Source: Streptosporangiales bacterium (GTDB taxonomy: Bacteria > Actinomycetota > Actinomycetes > Streptosporangiales > WHST01). Taken from it: DNA of 49,684 bases. The stretch lies in assembly GCA_009379825.1 (NCBI GenBank), contig WHTA01000038.1, positions 1 through 49,684 on the forward strand, in the 5' to 3' direction. Shown here one piece after another: positions 20,229 to 28,128 of this stretch. The notes under the pieces are model-generated. The model saw only the letters and a program-made list of their open reading frames with translations. It made no database searches and was not told the DNA's origin. A program made the translations under genes and the position numbers. The first letter of the stretch is position 1; each line of letters opens with the position of its first letter.

Positions 20229-20924
20229 CTAGGTGGGCGTGACGGCGGCCGTGACGATTGGGCCGAGTAGGGCGTGTAGGGCTTGCTCGCCGTCGGGGGT
20301 GAGGCGGACGGCGCGGCTGGTGCCGATCCGGCGGATCCAGTGCTGGGCGAAGAACGCGCTGCAGAGGTGGGCGCCTGCCGCGCCGGCGAGGTGCGGGCGG
20401 CGCTCGGTCCAGTCGAGGCAGCTGCGGGAGAGCGGGCGGCGACCTGCGACCACCGGGCCGCCGAGATGCTCGGCGATCCACTCCAGCCCGTCCGGCGTGA
20501 CGGCGAGCCTGGCGTCGAGCACGCCGCGGGTCCTGAGGGCCTCGCTGACGGCCACGCCGAGTCGGCCGGCCAGGTGGTCGTAACAGGTGCGGCCGCGGGC
20601 GAGCGCGTCCCGCCTCGACACTGCCTTGAGGCTGCGCAGCACCGCGGGGCGGGGCTCGGTCAGAGCAGCCAGGTCCTCCAGGCAGGCGGCCACGCGCGGC
20701 CCGGCCAGCTCGACGTACCGGCTCCGCCCGCGCCGGTGCTCCGTGCACAGGCCGGCGGCGACGAGCGCGGTCACGTGCTCGCTCGCCGTCGGCAGGGCGA
20801 CGCCGGCTTCCCTCGCCAGCCGGGAGACGGACCACGCCTGGCCGTCCATGAGGGCATTGCAGAACTCGGCGCGCGTGCGGTTGGCCAACACCGACGCGAC
20901 AGCGGAAAGTCCTTCGGCCGTCAT
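20229..20924 (-). CDS. ArsR/winged-helix regulator with C-terminal extension
   Basis: 231 residues, twice the size of a plain ArsR protein. The N-terminal winged helix reads LSAVASVLANRTRAEFCNAL, SVSRLAREAGVALPTASEHV and TALVAAGLCTEHRRGRSRYV. The C-terminal half contains CYDHLAGRLGVAVSEAL and LDWTERRPHLAGAAGAHLC, typical of the longer ArsR-like regulators whose effector is unknown. ATG 20924 is chosen because the upstream GTG (20960) lies inside a palindrome. It is divergent from the P450-like/PEP-mutase fusion, whose expression it probably controls. Confidence 0.85.
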   Translation of the reverse strand: MTAEGLSAVASVLANRTRAEFCNALMDGQAWSVSRLAREAGVALPTASEHVTALVAAGLCTEHRRGRSRYVELAGPRVAACLEDLAALTEPRPAVLRSLKAVSRRDALARGRTCYDHLAGRLGVAVSEALRTRGVLDARLAVTPDGLEWIAEHLGGPVVAGRRPLSRSCLDWTERRPHLAGAAGAHLCSAFFAQHWIRRIGTSRAVRLTPDGEQALHALLGPIVTAAVTPT

Positions 20925-20944
20925 GGGGAGATCGTCCCCCGCGG

Positions 20945-20968
20945 ACGCTTCGGAGTCCACCGAAGCGT
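20945..20968. promoter_or_regulatory. Operator palindrome between ArsR-like gene and fusion gene
   Basis: ACGCTTCGG (20945-20953) and CCGAAGCGT (20960-20968) are perfect 9-bp arms with a 6-bp spacer, midway between two divergent starts at 20924 and 20990. Its position fits autorepression and control of the fusion gene by the ArsR-like protein. Confidence 0.75.
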
Positions 20969-20989
20969 TACCCGCCTACCGTCCAGGGC

Positions 20990-22279
20990 ATGGAGATCCT
21001 GACCGACCCCACCTACACCGTCCCCGCGGTGCCGCAGGCGGACACGGGCGTGGCCTGGCTGCGCGCGAGCGTCCCCAGGTTCGCCGAGGGCGAGCCGCAC
21101 GCCAGGCGCCGCGCGCTCGCGGAGCGGCTGCTCGCCGCGGTCGACCCAGCTGCGCTGCGCCGCCCCGGCGCACCCGTCGCCAACCTCGCCGAGGCGCTCG
21201 GCCTGCCGCGCACCGTGGTGGGTGACGTGGCCGAGGTCGCCTCCTGCTACCAGCCGCACCTGCCGGTCACCACGGCCGCCGACGAGGCGGTCGCCCGGTT
21301 GGTGACCGCGGCCGGCGGCCGCTGGGACGAGCCGACCGCCGTGCGGATCGGACTCCTCGTGCAGGCGTCCGGCCCCACCGACGCGCTGCTCGCCGGCCGG
21401 CGGCCGCCGGTGCCGACCACCCGCCGGGTCGCACCCGACGGCACCGAGCTCGCCGTCGACCTCACCGACCACCCGTTCGGGGCGGGCCGGCACGCCTGTC
21501 CGGCGCAGGCCCACGCCGAGGCGATGGTGGAAGGCGCACGGCTCTTCCACCGCATGCACCAAGGACCCGAGCCGCTGGTGCTGCCGAACGCCTGGGACGT
21601 GGCGTCGGCCGCCGCACTGGTGGCCGCCGGCTTCGGTGCGGTCGCCACGACCAGCCTCGGCGTCGCGGCGGCGCACGGCCTCCCGGACGGGGCAGGCAGG
21701 ACCCGCGCGGAGACCGTGGCGCTCGCCCGGCGGCTGGTGGCGCTACCGGTGCCGGTCACCGTCGACGTCGAGTACGGGCTCGGGGCCGACCCGGCCGAGC
21801 TGGCGGCCGAGCTGTCCGCCCTCGGCGTCGCCGGCATCAACCTCGAGGACGGCCGGCCGGACGGCCTCGCGCTCGCGGCGGACCACGCGCAGCTCGTCGG
21901 CCGGGTGAAGGCGGCCGCGCCCGAGCTGTTCGTCAACGCCCGGGTCGACACCCACTGGCAGGGCATCGACCTGGAGGAGACAAGGCCCCGCGCTGCGCGC
22001 TACGTGGACGCCGGCGCCGACGGCGTCTTCGTGCCCGGGCTCACCGACGAGCCCGAGATCGGCAGGCTCGTCGAGGCCCTGCCGGTGCCGCTCAACCTGC
22101 TGAGCCAGCTGCCGCTCGGCCGGCTGCGGGCGCTCGGCGTCCGCCGGGTGAGCACCGGCTCGCTGCTGTTCCGCGCGGCGCTCAAGGCGACCACCGACGC
22201 CGCCGCGGCGATCCTGGCCAGCGGCCAGGTCACGGACGTGCCCTCGTACGACGAGGTCGCCGGACGTAGCGTGCCCTAG
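20990..22279 (+). CDS. P450-like domain fused to isocitrate lyase/PEP mutase-family enzyme
   Basis: 429 residues. Residues from about 182 form a PEP mutase/isocitrate lyase superfamily barrel: PLVLPNAWDVASAAALVAAG, VATTSLGVAAAHGLPDG, PVTVDVEYGLGADPAELAAE, AGINLEDGRPDG and FVNARVDTHWQG. Homologues usually begin just before LFHRMHQGPEPLVLPN. The first 180 residues look like a cut-down cytochrome P450: a C-helix-like EGEPHARRRALAERLL and the haem-ligand motif HPFGAGRHACPAQAHAEAM with Cys170. The I-helix and ExxR regions are missing or unrecognisable. The frame is open throughout, so it is a fusion or a join by deletion. Activity of the P450 part is doubtful. The gene shares a CTAG stop with the convergent SnoaL-like gene. 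Confidence 0.85.
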   Translation: MEILTDPTYTVPAVPQADTGVAWLRASVPRFAEGEPHARRRALAERLLAAVDPAALRRPGAPVANLAEALGLPRTVVGDVAEVASCYQPHLPVTTAADEAVARLVTAAGGRWDEPTAVRIGLLVQASGPTDALLAGRRPPVPTTRRVAPDGTELAVDLTDHPFGAGRHACPAQAHAEAMVEGARLFHRMHQGPEPLVLPNAWDVASAAALVAAGFGAVATTSLGVAAAHGLPDGAGRTRAETVALARRLVALPVPVTVDVEYGLGADPAELAAELSALGVAGINLEDGRPDGLALAADHAQLVGRVKAAAPELFVNARVDTHWQGIDLEETRPRAARYVDAGADGVFVPGLTDEPEIGRLVEALPVPLNLLSQLPLGRLRALGVRRVSTGSLLFRAALKATTDAAAAILASGQVTDVPSYDEVAGRSVP

Positions 22280-22683
22280 TCGTCGTGCGGGAACGAGTGG
22301 TGCTCGTGCGTGACCTGCCAGCGGCCGTCCACCTTGCGCAGGCCGATGGTCAGCCGGAGCCGGTTCGCCGGTTTCGCGGCGAAGTCGTCCGCCGTGCCGC
22401 AGCGCAGCAGCGCGTGCGCGAACGCCACATCGCTGCCCGCGGTGACGTCCAGGCTCTCGAGGTCGAACGAGGAGCCCTGCGCCTGCCACTCGAAGAACGG
22501 CGGCCAGGTCGCGCGGTACGCGTCGATGCCGCGCACACCCTGGTACGGCGGCGGCACGTCATACATGACGATGTCGTCGGCGTGGTCGGCGAGCACGGTG
22601 ACCAGGTCTCCCGCGTGGACGGCACCCGCCCACCGTTCGATCAGGGTACGGATCTCGCGCTCGTCGTCGGTGCGGCCGGCCAT
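22276..22683 (-). CDS. SnoaL-like/NTF2-fold protein
   Basis: 135 residues of the NTF2-like fold (SnoaL/YybH-type). Typical parts are REIRTLIERWAGAVHAGDL, VLADHADDIVMYDVPPPYQG, RATWPPFFEW and DVAFAHALLRCGTADDF, ending in GLRKVDGRWQVTHEHHSFPHD. Members are small cytosolic proteins that act as isomerases, cyclases or unknown-ligand binders. HSxP near the end is common in the family. It lies 13 bp downstream of the PPOX-like gene and is probably co-transcribed. Its stop overlaps the convergent fusion gene stop. Confidence 0.85.
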   Translation of the reverse strand: MAGRTDDEREIRTLIERWAGAVHAGDLVTVLADHADDIVMYDVPPPYQGVRGIDAYRATWPPFFEWQAQGSSFDLESLDVTAGSDVAFAHALLRCGTADDFAAKPANRLRLTIGLRKVDGRWQVTHEHHSFPHDD

Positions 22684-23251: not shown

Positions 23252-24509
23252 ATGACAGAACAACAGGTCACGGCGCAGGATGTCACCGCGAAGGACGCGC
23301 GCAGGGCGTTGGCGGCCGCCGGCATCGGCTGGGGGCTGGACGGCCTCACCTGGACGATGTACGCGTTCGCGCTCACCGCCGTCATGCCCGTGCTGGGCAT
23401 CTCCGAGGGCGCCTCCGGCTGGATCACCGCGGTGAGCATCGGGGCCTCCGCGATCGGCGGTGTCGCCTGTGGCTCGCTCGCCGACCGGTTCGGCCGGGTG
23501 CGGGTGCTGACCTGGGTGATCGTCGGCTACTGCGTCTTCACCGCGCTTCACCGCGACGGCGCAGGACGTCACCCAGTTCGCCATCTGGCGGGTCCTCGAG
23601 GGCTTCGCCTTCGGCGGCGAGTGGGCGGTCGGCGCCGCCCTCATCGCCGAGTACGCGGCGCCGAAGCGCCGCGGCCGGGTGCTCGCGTTCGTACAGAGCT
23701 GTTACGCGATCGGCTGGGCGATCTCCACCGGGCTCTACCTGGTCGTGTTCTCGTTCGCGCCTGAGGACGTCGCCTGGCGGTACCTGTTCCTGGTGGGCGT
23801 CGTGCCGGCCGTCGCCGCGTTCGTCATCAGGCGCACCACCCGCGACCGGGTGCAGGTGACGGCCAAGCGGAAGGAGCCGTTCGGCCAGCTGTTCCAGCGG
23901 CGGAACCTGAAGACCACGCTGCTCGCGACCGGTGTCGGCCTCGGCATCCAGGGCATCTACTACTCGGTGTTCGTCTTCATGCCGCTGTTCCTGCGTACGG
24001 AGCGCGACCTGACGGTCATCGGCACCGCCACCTACACCTGGGTGGTGATCGTCGGCTCGTTCATCGGCTACGTGGCTTCCGGCTTCGTGCACGACGCGCT
24101 CGGCCGCCGACCCACGTTCACGGTGTTCTTCATCGGCTCCGCGGGCGCGATCGCGCTGTTCGTCTTCACGCCCGTCGTGCGCCCTGAGCTGGGGTACCTG
24201 ATCAGCTTCCTGCTCGGCTTCTTCGCGTCCGGCCAGGCCGGCGGCATGGGCGCGTACCTGGCCGAGCTCTTCCCCACCGACGTGCGCGCGAGCGGACAGG
24301 GCTTCGCGTACAACGTCGGCCGCGGCGTCGCCGGTTTCGGACCGTTGACCATCGGGGTCCTGGCGGCAGAGACCGGTTTCGGCCACGCGATCGCGTGGGT
24401 CGGGTTCGTCGCCGCCGCACTCGGCATCGTGACGGTGTGGTCGCTGCCGGAGACCAAGAGCAGGAACATCCTGAAAGACGTCATGCCCGTCGACCAAGGA
24501 AGCAGATGA
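23252..24509 (+). pseudogene. MFS transporter of HyuAB operon, frameshifted
   Basis: About 418 residues if repaired, 12 predicted membrane helices. The N terminus LAAAGIGWGLDGLTWTMYAF and loop GSLADRFGRVRVL are MFS features. After GYCVFTAL the frame is lost near 23548, where one extra T is present; without it the protein runs on as TATAQDVTQFAIWRVLEGF and FGGEWAVGAALIAEY. The C-terminal half is intact, ending KSRNILKDVMPVDQGSR. The stop overlaps the HyuA start by ATGA, so this is the likely importer for the HyuAB substrate. ATG 23252 follows GGAGG. Confidence 0.88.
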
Positions 24510-26545
24510 CAGAAACCACTGACCAGGCAAGGGTCGCGATCGACACCGGCGGAACCTTCACCGACGTGGCGCTGCGCAGCGCCGACGGCCGGGTGACCGT
24601 GCAGAAGGTGCCGTCCCGGCCGTCCGCACCCGACGACGCGGTGCTCGCCGGGCTGCGCAAGGCGTGCACGACGACGGGCGTACCGGAGACCGCGGTCAGC
24701 AGGCTGGTGCACGGCACGACCGTCGCGACGAACGCGTTGCTCACCCGCGGCGGCGCGCGCGTCGGCCTGGTCACCACGGCCGGCTTCCGCGACGTGCTCA
24801 CCATCGGCTACCAGACGCGGCCCTCGCTGTACGACCCACTGGCCAGGCACCCGGCACCGCTGGTGCCGCCGGAACGCACCTGGGAGGTGGACGAGCGGGT
24901 GCTCGCCGACGGCAGCGTGCGCACACCACTGCCGGCCACCGACGTCCACGCGCTCACCACCTCGATCAAGGCCGAGGCGCCTGACGTGGTCGTCGTCGCG
25001 CTGCTGAACAGCTACGTGAACCCGGACCACGAGCGCGAGTGCGCGCGCCTGCTCGGCGACGCCGGGGCCGCGCCGGTCGTCTTCGCCGCGACCGACGTCG
25101 CCGCCGAGATGCGCGAGTACGAGCGGATCTCCACCGCCGTACTGAACGGGTACGTCGAGCCGGTGGTCGCCGGCTACGTCGGCCGGCTGGAGTCGCGGCT
25201 GGCCGAGGACGGGCTCGCCGGCGGCCTGTGGATCATGCAGTCCAACGGTGGTCTGATGAACGCGTCTGCGGTGCGCCGGCAGAGCGTGCGCACCATCCTC
25301 TCCGGGCTCGCCGGCGGGGTGATCGGCGCCGCGCGGTGGGCGCACGACCTCGGCCTGCAGAAGGCGGTCAGCCTGGACATCGGCGGCACCAGCACGGACA
25401 TCGCGTTGATCAGGGACGGCAAGCCGGACGAGGTGACGTCCGCGGAGATCGACGGCTTCCCCATGCGGATGCCCGCTGTGGACGTGCACACCATCGGCGC
25501 CGGCGGCGGCTCGATCGCGTGGCGCGACGCCGGCGGCGGGCTGCGCGTCGGGCCGCAGTCGGCCGGCGCCGATCCCGGGCCGGTGTCGTACGGCCGCGGC
25601 GGCGACCGCACGACGGTGACCGACGCGCACCTGCTGCTCGGCCGGCTGGGCACCGACCTCCTCGACGGCGAGCTGAGCCTCGATGCGGAGGCGGCGCGTA
25701 CGCAGCTGGCGCTGCTCGCCGACGCTCTCGGCCTGCCGACCGAGGAGACCGCGGCCGGGGTGCTCCGGGTCGCGAACGCGACCATCGCACGCGGCATCCG
25801 CGCCGTGAGCGTGGAACGCGGCGTGGACGTCCGCGACTGCACGCTGATCGCGTTCGGCGGCGCCGGGCCGCTGCACGGCGCCGAGCTGTTGCACGAGCTG
25901 GGCATGCGTGCGGTGGTCGTACCCCCGCATCCCGGCATCGCGTCCGCCGTCGGCATGCTCGACGCGCCGATCCGGCACGACTTCGCCGCCGCAGCGACCG
26001 CGCGTTCCGCGGCCGACCTGCCCGACACCGGCAAGGTGCTCGACGCGCTGGCCGCGGACGCGCTTGCATTCATGACGGACGCGGAAGACCTCCCCGCGAC
26101 CGAGGTCGACCTGTGGCGTGGCGTCGACGCGCGCTACCTCGGCCAGAGCTACGAGCTCACCATCGACTGGCGCGCCGACTTCGACGCGCTGCGCACGGCG
26201 TTCGACGCCGCACACCTGGAGCGGTACGGCTTCGCCGACGACGACGCCACGCTGGAGATCGTCGCCGTCCGCGTCACCGCGACCGCGCCGATGGCGGAGA
26301 GCACCACTCAGGAGCGCACCGCCCCATCGGCCATGCCCACCCCGGTCGCCCACCGCACCGCGTACATCGCAGGTGCGTGGCACGAGACGCCGGTCTACCG
26401 CCGCGACGCACTGCCGGCGGACCAACCGATGGCCGGCCCGCTCATCGTGGAACAACTGGACAGCACGGTCGTCGTCGCGGCCGGACAACTATGCACCGCC
26501 GACGCGGAGGGGTTCCTCCGGATCGAGGCGGAGGGAGCACGATGA
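24506..26545 (+). CDS. hyuA: Hydantoinase/oxoprolinase subunit A (HyuA)
   Basis: 679 residues. HyuA proteins with HyuB form ATP-dependent amidohydrolases or carboxylases acting on hydantoins, 5-oxoproline, acetone or acetophenone. The two phosphate-binding motifs of the actin-like fold are visible: AIDTGGTFTDVALRS at the N terminus and SLDIGGTSTDIALIRDG in the middle. LVHGTTVATNALL, IMQSNGGLMNA, IGAGGGSIAWRD, CTLIAFGGAGPLHGAEL and VPPHPGIASAVGML are also classical. The length is normal. It overlaps both the MFS gene and HyuB by ATGA. The substrate is not readable. Confidence 0.93.
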   Translation: MTETTDQARVAIDTGGTFTDVALRSADGRVTVQKVPSRPSAPDDAVLAGLRKACTTTGVPETAVSRLVHGTTVATNALLTRGGARVGLVTTAGFRDVLTIGYQTRPSLYDPLARHPAPLVPPERTWEVDERVLADGSVRTPLPATDVHALTTSIKAEAPDVVVVALLNSYVNPDHERECARLLGDAGAAPVVFAATDVAAEMREYERISTAVLNGYVEPVVAGYVGRLESRLAEDGLAGGLWIMQSNGGLMNASAVRRQSVRTILSGLAGGVIGAARWAHDLGLQKAVSLDIGGTSTDIALIRDGKPDEVTSAEIDGFPMRMPAVDVHTIGAGGGSIAWRDAGGGLRVGPQSAGADPGPVSYGRGGDRTTVTDAHLLLGRLGTDLLDGELSLDAEAARTQLALLADALGLPTEETAAGVLRVANATIARGIRAVSVERGVDVRDCTLIAFGGAGPLHGAELLHELGMRAVVVPPHPGIASAVGMLDAPIRHDFAAAATARSAADLPDTGKVLDALAADALAFMTDAEDLPATEVDLWRGVDARYLGQSYELTIDWRADFDALRTAFDAAHLERYGFADDDATLEIVAVRVTATAPMAESTTQERTAPSAMPTPVAHRTAYIAGAWHETPVYRRDALPADQPMAGPLIVEQLDSTVVVAAGQLCTADAEGFLRIEAEGAR

Positions 26546-28128
26546 ACGGAGACACCCGACTGGACCCGGTGGCGCTCGAGGTCGCCAGGCACCGACTGGA
26601 GTCGGTCGCGGAAGAGGTCGGCATGGCGCTCATCCGCACCTCGTACTCGCCGAACATCAAGGACAGGCGCGACTGCTCCGCCGGCATCTACGCCCCCGAC
26701 GGCGAGCTGATCGCGCAGGCCGAGCACATCCCGCTCCACCTCGGCCTGATGCCGTCGATGATCAAGGCGGCGGTCGCCGAGGTCGGCACGGCGCAGCTGC
26801 GGCCGGGTGACGTGCTCATCACGAACAACCCGTACATCGGCGGCTCGCACCTGCCGGACACCTGCGTCATCACCCCGGTGCACGACGGCGACGAGCTGGT
26901 GGCGCTGCTCGCGAACATGGCGCACCACGTCGACGTGGGCGGCAGCACGCCGGGGTCGATGGCCGCCGACGCGACGGAGATCTTCGCCGAGGGCATCAGG
27001 ATCCCGCCGATGCGGCTGATCACCCGCGGCCGGCTGCGCACCGACGTGCTGCAGCTGTTGATGGCCAACGTGCGGACGCACGAGAAGACCCGCGGCGACC
27101 TGATGGCCCAGGTCGCCGCGAACGAGCTCGGCGCCCGCCGGATCCGCGAGCTGGTGGCCGAGTGGGGCGTCGACGGCCTGCAGGATGCGTGCCTCGCGCT
27201 CGTCGAGTACGCCGAGCGGCGCACCCGGGCCGCGCTCGCCGAGCTGCCAGACGGCACCGGCTCGTTCACCGACTTCCTCGAGCACACCGGCACCCGGCCG
27301 GCGGACATCCCCATCGCGGCGACCGTGCGCAAGTACGGCAGCGAGCTCGCCGTCGACCTCACCGCATCCGCCGACCAGGTCGAAGGTGCGGTGAACTGCT
27401 CGTCCGCCATCACGCAGGGCTGCATCGCGTACGTGGTGAAGATGCTGACCGACCCGACGCTGCCGTCGAACGCCGGGCTGATGCGCCCGATCAGCGTCGA
27501 CACGCGCCCGGGCAGCGTGGTGTCCGCGCGGTTCCCTGCACCGGTCGCGAACGGCAACACCCAGACGGCGCAACGCATCGTGGACGCCGTGCTCGGCGCG
27601 TTCCAGACGTTCGCGCCTGAGCGGGTGCCTGCGGCGAGCAGCGGCAGCATGAGCATCGTCACGGTCGGCGGCCTGCATCCGGAGACCGGGCAGTACTTCT
27701 CGTACGTGGAGACGTACGGCGGCGGGCAGGGTGCGCATCCGTTGCTCGACGGCGCCGACGCGGTGCACACGCACATGACCAACACGAGGAACACCCCGTG
27801 CGAGGTCATCGAGCGGGAGTACCCGTTGCTCGTGCGGAGGTATGCGGTCGCCAGGGACACCGGCGGGGCGGGCCGGCACTGCGGCGGCGCGGGGCTGGTC
27901 AGGGAGCTCGAGCTCACCGCGGGTGAGGCGGTCGCCGTGGTGGCCACCGCCAGGGTGGACCGGCGCCCCTGGGGCCTGGACGGCGGCGAACCCGGCCGGC
28001 CGGCAACCGTGCGCGCCGTCCTCGCCGGCGACGAGGTGCAGCTGGAAGCCATGTCGCGGCTGAAGCTCACGGCTGGCGACCGCGTACACATCCAGACCGC
28101 CGGCGGCGGCGGGTACGGCCAACCCTAG
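26542..28128 (+). CDS. hyuB: Hydantoinase/oxoprolinase subunit B (HyuB)
   Basis: 528 residues. Standard HyuB motifs: RLESVAEEVGMALIRTSYSP, IKDRRDCSAGIYAPDGELIA, HIPLHLGLMPSMIKA, LITNNPYIGGSHLPDTCVI, MAHHVDVGGSTPGSMAADAT, VVSARFPAPVANGNTQTAQR and GGGQGAHPLLDGADAVHTHM, ending TAGGGGYGQP. The metal-binding His residues in MAHHVDVGG are kept. Its stop TAG lies in a CTAG that forms the left flank of the IS481-derived element. Removing that element would place the stop of the next gene on the same CTAG. It acts with HyuA. Confidence 0.94.
   Translation: MNGDTRLDPVALEVARHRLESVAEEVGMALIRTSYSPNIKDRRDCSAGIYAPDGELIAQAEHIPLHLGLMPSMIKAAVAEVGTAQLRPGDVLITNNPYIGGSHLPDTCVITPVHDGDELVALLANMAHHVDVGGSTPGSMAADATEIFAEGIRIPPMRLITRGRLRTDVLQLLMANVRTHEKTRGDLMAQVAANELGARRIRELVAEWGVDGLQDACLALVEYAERRTRAALAELPDGTGSFTDFLEHTGTRPADIPIAATVRKYGSELAVDLTASADQVEGAVNCSSAITQGCIAYVVKMLTDPTLPSNAGLMRPISVDTRPGSVVSARFPAPVANGNTQTAQRIVDAVLGAFQTFAPERVPAASSGSMSIVTVGGLHPETGQYFSYVETYGGGQGAHPLLDGADAVHTHMTNTRNTPCEVIEREYPLLVRRYAVARDTGGAGRHCGGAGLVRELELTAGEAVAVVATARVDRRPWGLDGGEPGRPATVRAVLAGDEVQLEAMSRLKLTAGDRVHIQTAGGGGYGQP

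Follow-up and report, generated by a model that had tools for sequence, protein, structure and literature searches.

Natural cytochrome P450 fusions such as CYP102, CYP116B and CYP51-ferredoxin combine full P450s with redox partners. Bacterial P450s, among them P450BioI and CYP107, are about 400 residues long and are built in the order C-helix, I-helix, beta1-4, Cys loop and L-helix, and the ExxR motif is near-universal in P450s. Members of the isocitrate lyase (ICL)/PEP mutase superfamily (PF13714; Dfa0005) have a complete domain with conserved metal and 2-oxoacid residues, and ArsR-type regulators (HTH_20) combine a winged-helix domain with a divergent gene and a palindromic operator.

Here, we describe a locus in which these components appear to be brought together, within a window of 49,684 nucleotides (the whole stretch of DNA that was analysed). 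Like the natural P450 fusions, its central protein seems to combine a P450 part and a further domain in a single chain, but the P450 is a miniature and the partner is of the lyase type. The N-terminal domain shares with P450BioI and CYP107 the order of structural elements, the Cys-ligand signature and the predicted haem-propionate contacts, and its model aligns with P450s over 173 of 193 residues. It differs from them in having only about 185 residues, in lacking the ExxR helix, the acid-alcohol pair and the meander region, and in having a lyase in place of a redox partner. The lyase domain is complete and keeps the conserved residues of its superfamily, although, unlike Dfa0005 and other PF13714 members, it has an N-terminal P450-derived domain and no lyase-type catalytic Cys loop. 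The regulator has the winged-helix domain, divergent gene and palindromic operator of the ArsR type, but it is a 243-residue form whose long C-terminal half contains TCYDH and CLDWTERR. In the open-licence literature that we searched for a P450 with PEP mutase and ArsR, for truncated P450s and for P450 fusions, we found no description of this module. Each component comes from a known superfamily, and what is new, as far as that literature goes, is the miniature P450 and its module with the lyase. To our knowledge, about 190 residues is roughly half the length of the smallest P450s known.

The fusion gene and its lyase domain

The fusion gene is a single frame running from ATG to stop, 429 residues long and free of internal stops (Table 1). 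As the initial annotation had described, it joins a haem-ligand-like motif around Cys170 to a complete PEP mutase domain; the match to PF13714 covered profile positions 1 to 240 of 240. Four residues of this domain (D259, E261, E286 and R318) are invariant in 46 of 46 lyases, and from knowledge of the superfamily we take them to be the metal and substrate (2-oxoacid) residues. The closest solved structure was that of Dfa0005 with 2-oxoglutarate bound (2ZE3; E 7e-32, Z 20.5, 40% identity in the structural alignment). Against the NCBIfam equivalogs, the lyase scored far below the cut-offs for PrpB (56 versus 354 bits) and PEP mutase (31.5 versus 320).

Table 1. Features of the fusion locus, in window coordinates
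Feature	Position	Strand	Basis
ArsR-like regulator with long C-terminal part	20229..20960	-	HTH_20
Predicted palindromic operator, ACGCTTCGG-N6-CCGAAGCGT	20945..20968	.	Motif shared upstream of relatives' mini-P450 genes
-10-like TACCGT	20977..20982	+	Sequence reading; 7 nt before fusion ATG
Fusion gene, P450-derived domain plus PEP-mutase/ICL-superfamily domain	20990..22279	+	Open frame, ATG start, 429 aa
P450-derived domain, short type, residues 1-185	20990..21544	+	Profile similarity to canonical P450s; alignment of AF2 model with P450s
C-helix counterpart, residues 35-49, H37xxxR41 (predicted haem-propionate contacts)	21092..21136	+	Conservation in relatives
I-helix counterpart, residues 114-134, Gly128-Pro129 replacing acid-alcohol pair	21329..21391	+	Alignments, model helix, column contents
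Arg145-Arg146 after PPVPTT, predicted beta1-4 haem-propionate contact	21422..21427	+	Invariant in 12/12 of short type
Cys-ligand loop F163-GAGRHAC170P-A172	21476..21505 (Cys codon 21497-21499)	+	PS00086 match
PEP_mutase/isocitrate-lyase superfamily domain, residues 186-409	21545..22216	+	PF13714, 226 bits

P450 descent of the N-terminal domain

Searched alone, the N-terminal part gave zero matches in Pfam, NCBIfam and PDB sequence searches. The short type did align with a profile built from P450s of the window genome itself (hhalign probability 89.7, score 39.6), compared to scores of at most 7.8 for 15 column-shuffled control profiles. Long relatives matched the P450 profile with a probability of 99.9, and those that are unfused lay above the Pfam p450 cut-off (24-78 bits) and matched solved PDB P450s at E 1.6e-20. 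In one relative, a single ORF matches Pfam p450 at 45 bits as well as PEP_mutase at 249 bits. The profile score relative to the shuffled controls, together with the conservation of Cys-Pro in relatives (59 of 59 family members), ruled out a chance Cys motif.

We also examined an AF2 model of residues 1-193, which was built template-free from a three-sequence alignment (pLDDT 67, pTM 0.67). Its helices at residues 35-49, 114-134 and 171-190 are equated by the alignment with the C, I and L helices, and its Cys loop is of low confidence (pLDDT about 28-35). Foldseek with this model returned no match at E <= 0.001. After re-alignment, P450s made up 50 of the 50 matches listed, the best having a Z of 9.8 over 173 residues at 4.4 A, for a model with a pLDDT of 67. 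When we used the whole fusion in a fold search, the matches were all taken up by the lyase domain. Taken with the profile comparisons, the model argues that the N-terminal part truly derives from a P450.

The initial annotation had suggested a remnant haem pocket, and an apparent pocket does seem to have been kept, consisting of Cys170 and the predicted propionate contacts. FGAGRHACPA (residues 163-172) fits PROSITE PS00086, as do the corresponding residues in 12 of 12 short relatives. In ordinary P450s, the positions equivalent to H37, R41, R145-R146 and H168 contact the haem propionates. Among the 12 short-type relatives, H37 is present in 11 and R41 in all, and the HxxxR pattern occurs in 56 of 59 family members. 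The residues that are invariant in the short type are R41, R145, R146, F163, G164, G166, H168 and C170.

Both the I-helix and the ExxR region had been described as absent at the outset. We confirmed that the window protein has no ExxR or K-helix; ExxR was found in 0 of 12 short members and in 27 of the 59 members of the whole family. An I-helix counterpart, however, could be identified from the alignments and the model at residues about 114-134, where it contains LLVQASGPTDAL, though it is without the oxygen-activating residues. The acid of the acid-alcohol pair, replaced along with its partner in the window protein, is retained in 10 of 12 short relatives and in many long family members.

Regulator and putative operator and promoter

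A divergent ArsR-like gene and a perfect palindrome had been noted upstream of the fusion, and our analysis bears out both. The regulator frame matched HTH_20 at 38.1 bits (cut-off, 27) and the NCBIfam HTH_metalloreg model at 49.1 bits (cut-off, 55). By our reading of the sequence, its GTG start falls within the palindrome, and a downstream ATG at 20924 may be a likely alternative as the true start. Two motifs mark the regulator family, TCYDH (in 30 of 33 members) and C.DWTER (32 of 33), and these are possible metal or thiol sites. An ArsR orthologue adjoins 33 of the 62 loci that we compared.

The palindrome spans 24 bp and belongs to a family motif, ACGnTTCGG-N6-CCGAAnCGT. Allowing up to 3 mismatches, we found that 50 of 62 loci carry this motif on the 5' side of the P450-like gene; only 11 further matches occur in 469 kb. 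The window palindrome is the only site with 0-1 mismatches in its own 6.15-Mb genome, where the search for further operators gave 2-mismatch sites only. The position of TACCGT, 7 nt before the ATG, suggests a leaderless transcript, and TAnnnT is found at the equivalent place in many relatives. The ArsR protein presumably binds the palindrome and represses.

Relatives and the origin of the join

Scanning species genomes with the N-terminal 185 residues gave matches in Streptomonospora alba (74%) and Actinotalea subterranea (66%), and over the full alignment the fusions of loci L023 and L024 are 74% and 66% identical to the window protein. Both species have the same uninterrupted fusion, the same divergent ArsR and a similar palindrome. 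In total, the 62 loci include ten intact fusions and one join formed by internal deletion (L125); a further fusion lies on a Streptomyces plasmid. Retention of the same join across three genera, along with independent fusions elsewhere, upholds the proposal that the fusion is genuine. Within its own family (three genomes), the fusion is present in the window genome only, a pattern that points to acquisition by transfer or to loss in the others. The viral contigs that we searched contained no relatives.

In other actinobacteria, the P450-like part is a protein of its own, about 200-390 residues long, with the lyase gene directly after it. The lyase is fused, or downstream on the same strand, in 46 of 62 loci, and 16 have no adjacent lyase. 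The wide genome searches scored only a small number of candidates in each genome, and figures on distribution are therefore lower bounds. Among the 11 unfused pairs that we inspected, 9 have a lyase start overlapping the P450-like stop as ATGA or GTGA. The only broadly recurring neighbours were ArsR, the mini-P450 and the lyase, other shared ones being confined to groups of related loci. This gene content indicates that ArsR, miniature P450 and PEP-mutase-like lyase are a conserved module across Actinomycetota.

The initial annotation had raised the concern that relatives might carry two separate genes, leaving the fusion unique to one assembly. Two-gene relatives do exist, but the join is shared by three genera. 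It had also suggested a deletion join of two neighbouring genes, and as an account of origin this is half right. The separate genes overlap by ATGA, so fusion would need little beyond loss of the stop and overlap with a change of frame, but shrinkage of the P450 part predates the join. Unfused, the short form, which has about 205 residues and lacks the K-helix, occurs on Embleya plasmids and, next to a lyase encoded separately, in three further genomes (L127-L129), and thus its shrinkage was not caused by the join. A phylogeny of the P450-like part places the short forms together in a single clade, within which the window fusion is nested, and shortening therefore preceded fusion. Constraining all fusions to one clade was rejected (p-AU 0.0001), while constraining the long-type fusions to one clade was not (p 0.069), and parsimony on the P450-like tree gave three changes. 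Therefore, only two independent origins are firm, with three by parsimony, and fusion arose at least twice.

Proposed function

Because of the repeated fusion, the coupled translation and the shared operator, we consider it very probable that the two parts act jointly, although the loci without an adjacent lyase mean that this partnership is not absolute. We put the chances slightly better than even that the partnership is a functional one between a haem-thiolate domain and the lyase, while a catalytic role for the haem seems rather doubtful. In the scheme that we propose, the ArsR-type repressor would bind the 24-bp palindrome and turn the leaderless promoter off until its ligand arrives, upon which the haem-thiolate mini-domain and the Mg-dependent lyase would be made together, from two translationally coupled genes in most relatives and in one chain in the window. 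The lyase, as a Dfa0005-like member of the ICL/PEP-mutase superfamily, would act on a 2-oxoacid-like substrate. The mini-domain, in which the haem cradle is apparently kept while the ExxR helix and the I-helix pair for oxygen activation are lost, would either perform peroxide- or isomerase-type haem chemistry on the substrate of the lyase or gate the lyase. Those same losses make it unlikely to be a classical monooxygenase, and we infer that either of these roles is more likely than classical monooxygenation. Haem binding, repression and a shared substrate are all presumed here. Tentatively, and with somewhat less than even confidence in the whole, we picture a P450-fold haem-thiolate protein of about 190 residues that has abandoned monooxygenase chemistry and now assists a 2-oxoacid-type lyase, within a dedicated module under ArsR control whose genes have fused recurrently.

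Alternatively, the P450-derived part could be haem-free, a structural or oligomerisation domain on which the lyase came to depend. Several features are in keeping with this idea, including the progressive loss of the K-helix, ExxR and acid-alcohol pair, the short length, the low-confidence Cys loop of the model, and a locus (L064) in which a P450 part that has been cut further still sits beside a lyase gene. However, a mere scaffold would have no reason to keep Cys-Pro in every family member or predicted propionate contacts that vary little or not at all in the short type, and we consider this explanation unlikely, if worth taking seriously. Slightly less likely again is that the haem domain acts as an on-off switch for the lyase, sensing gas, redox state or a ligand and doing no chemistry itself. 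Such a role would suit haem contacts that are kept while oxygen-activation residues are lost, as well as direct fusion to an enzyme and a dedicated repressor, but the parts are separate proteins in most relatives, which are less suited to direct gating, and a pure sensor would not need the I-helix acid that so many short and long members keep. Finally, the fusion could be a decaying pseudogene or an assembly artefact, produced by read-through by chance or by a deletion join. This has a real counterpart in L125, where parts of both domains are gone, but for the window it is extremely improbable and is already refuted by conservation of the fusion across three genera in separate assemblies, by intact lyase residues, by the GC3 values of the two halves (0.95 and 0.96), and by dN/dS from codon counts among the window, Streptomonospora alba and Actinotalea subterranea fusions (N-terminal part, 0.31-0.37; lyase part, 0.23-0.39), which places both halves under purifying selection. 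The same join in the two named genera and the other fusions likewise rule out a one-off event.

If the short haem-thiolate domain that we favour does bind haem, it would push down the minimum size of the P450 fold and illustrate a natural, stepwise path from P450 to minimal haem module. Recurrent fusion with one lyase family opens a direct way to study what two orphan groups do, the mini-P450s and the Dfa0005-like lyases, and the operator and repressor offer a ready route to the inducer.

Variants and surroundings of the locus

In the window, a SnoaL_3-like gene (22276-22683, minus strand) converges on the fusion gene, their stops overlapping by 4 bases; it was not seen as a conserved neighbour among the relatives' loci. 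Further along (24395-28128, plus strand), the frame at 24395-26545 and the end of the frame at 25039-28128 resemble by eye a hydantoinase/oxoprolinase A-B pair.

The short P450-like genes of L025 (3980-4597), L026 (3980-4609), L126 and L130-L132, two of which lie on Embleya megaplasmids, are still preceded by the palindromic operator, and no adjoining ArsR or lyase was found. In L125 (2830-3858, plus strand), the C-helix part runs into the middle of the lyase domain, and this is probably a decaying copy; in its close relative L124, the two genes are apart. A stop in L064 (4412-4711, minus strand) cuts the P450-like part to about its first 65 residues, with the lyase gene downstream. The P450-like protein of L010 (658-1749, minus strand; = L053) ends in an apparent lyase C-terminal tail, LPSYTDVQAL, as though an in-frame deletion had removed the lyase. 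L094 (2614-4143, minus strand; P0001), L102, L110, L111 and L113 share a C-terminal extension (DHWHAS, GTGWSFR) that gave no Pfam match and looks DinB-like by eye. Lastly, in L057 (3993-5207, plus strand), the P450-like N-terminal part is tandemly duplicated within one frame.
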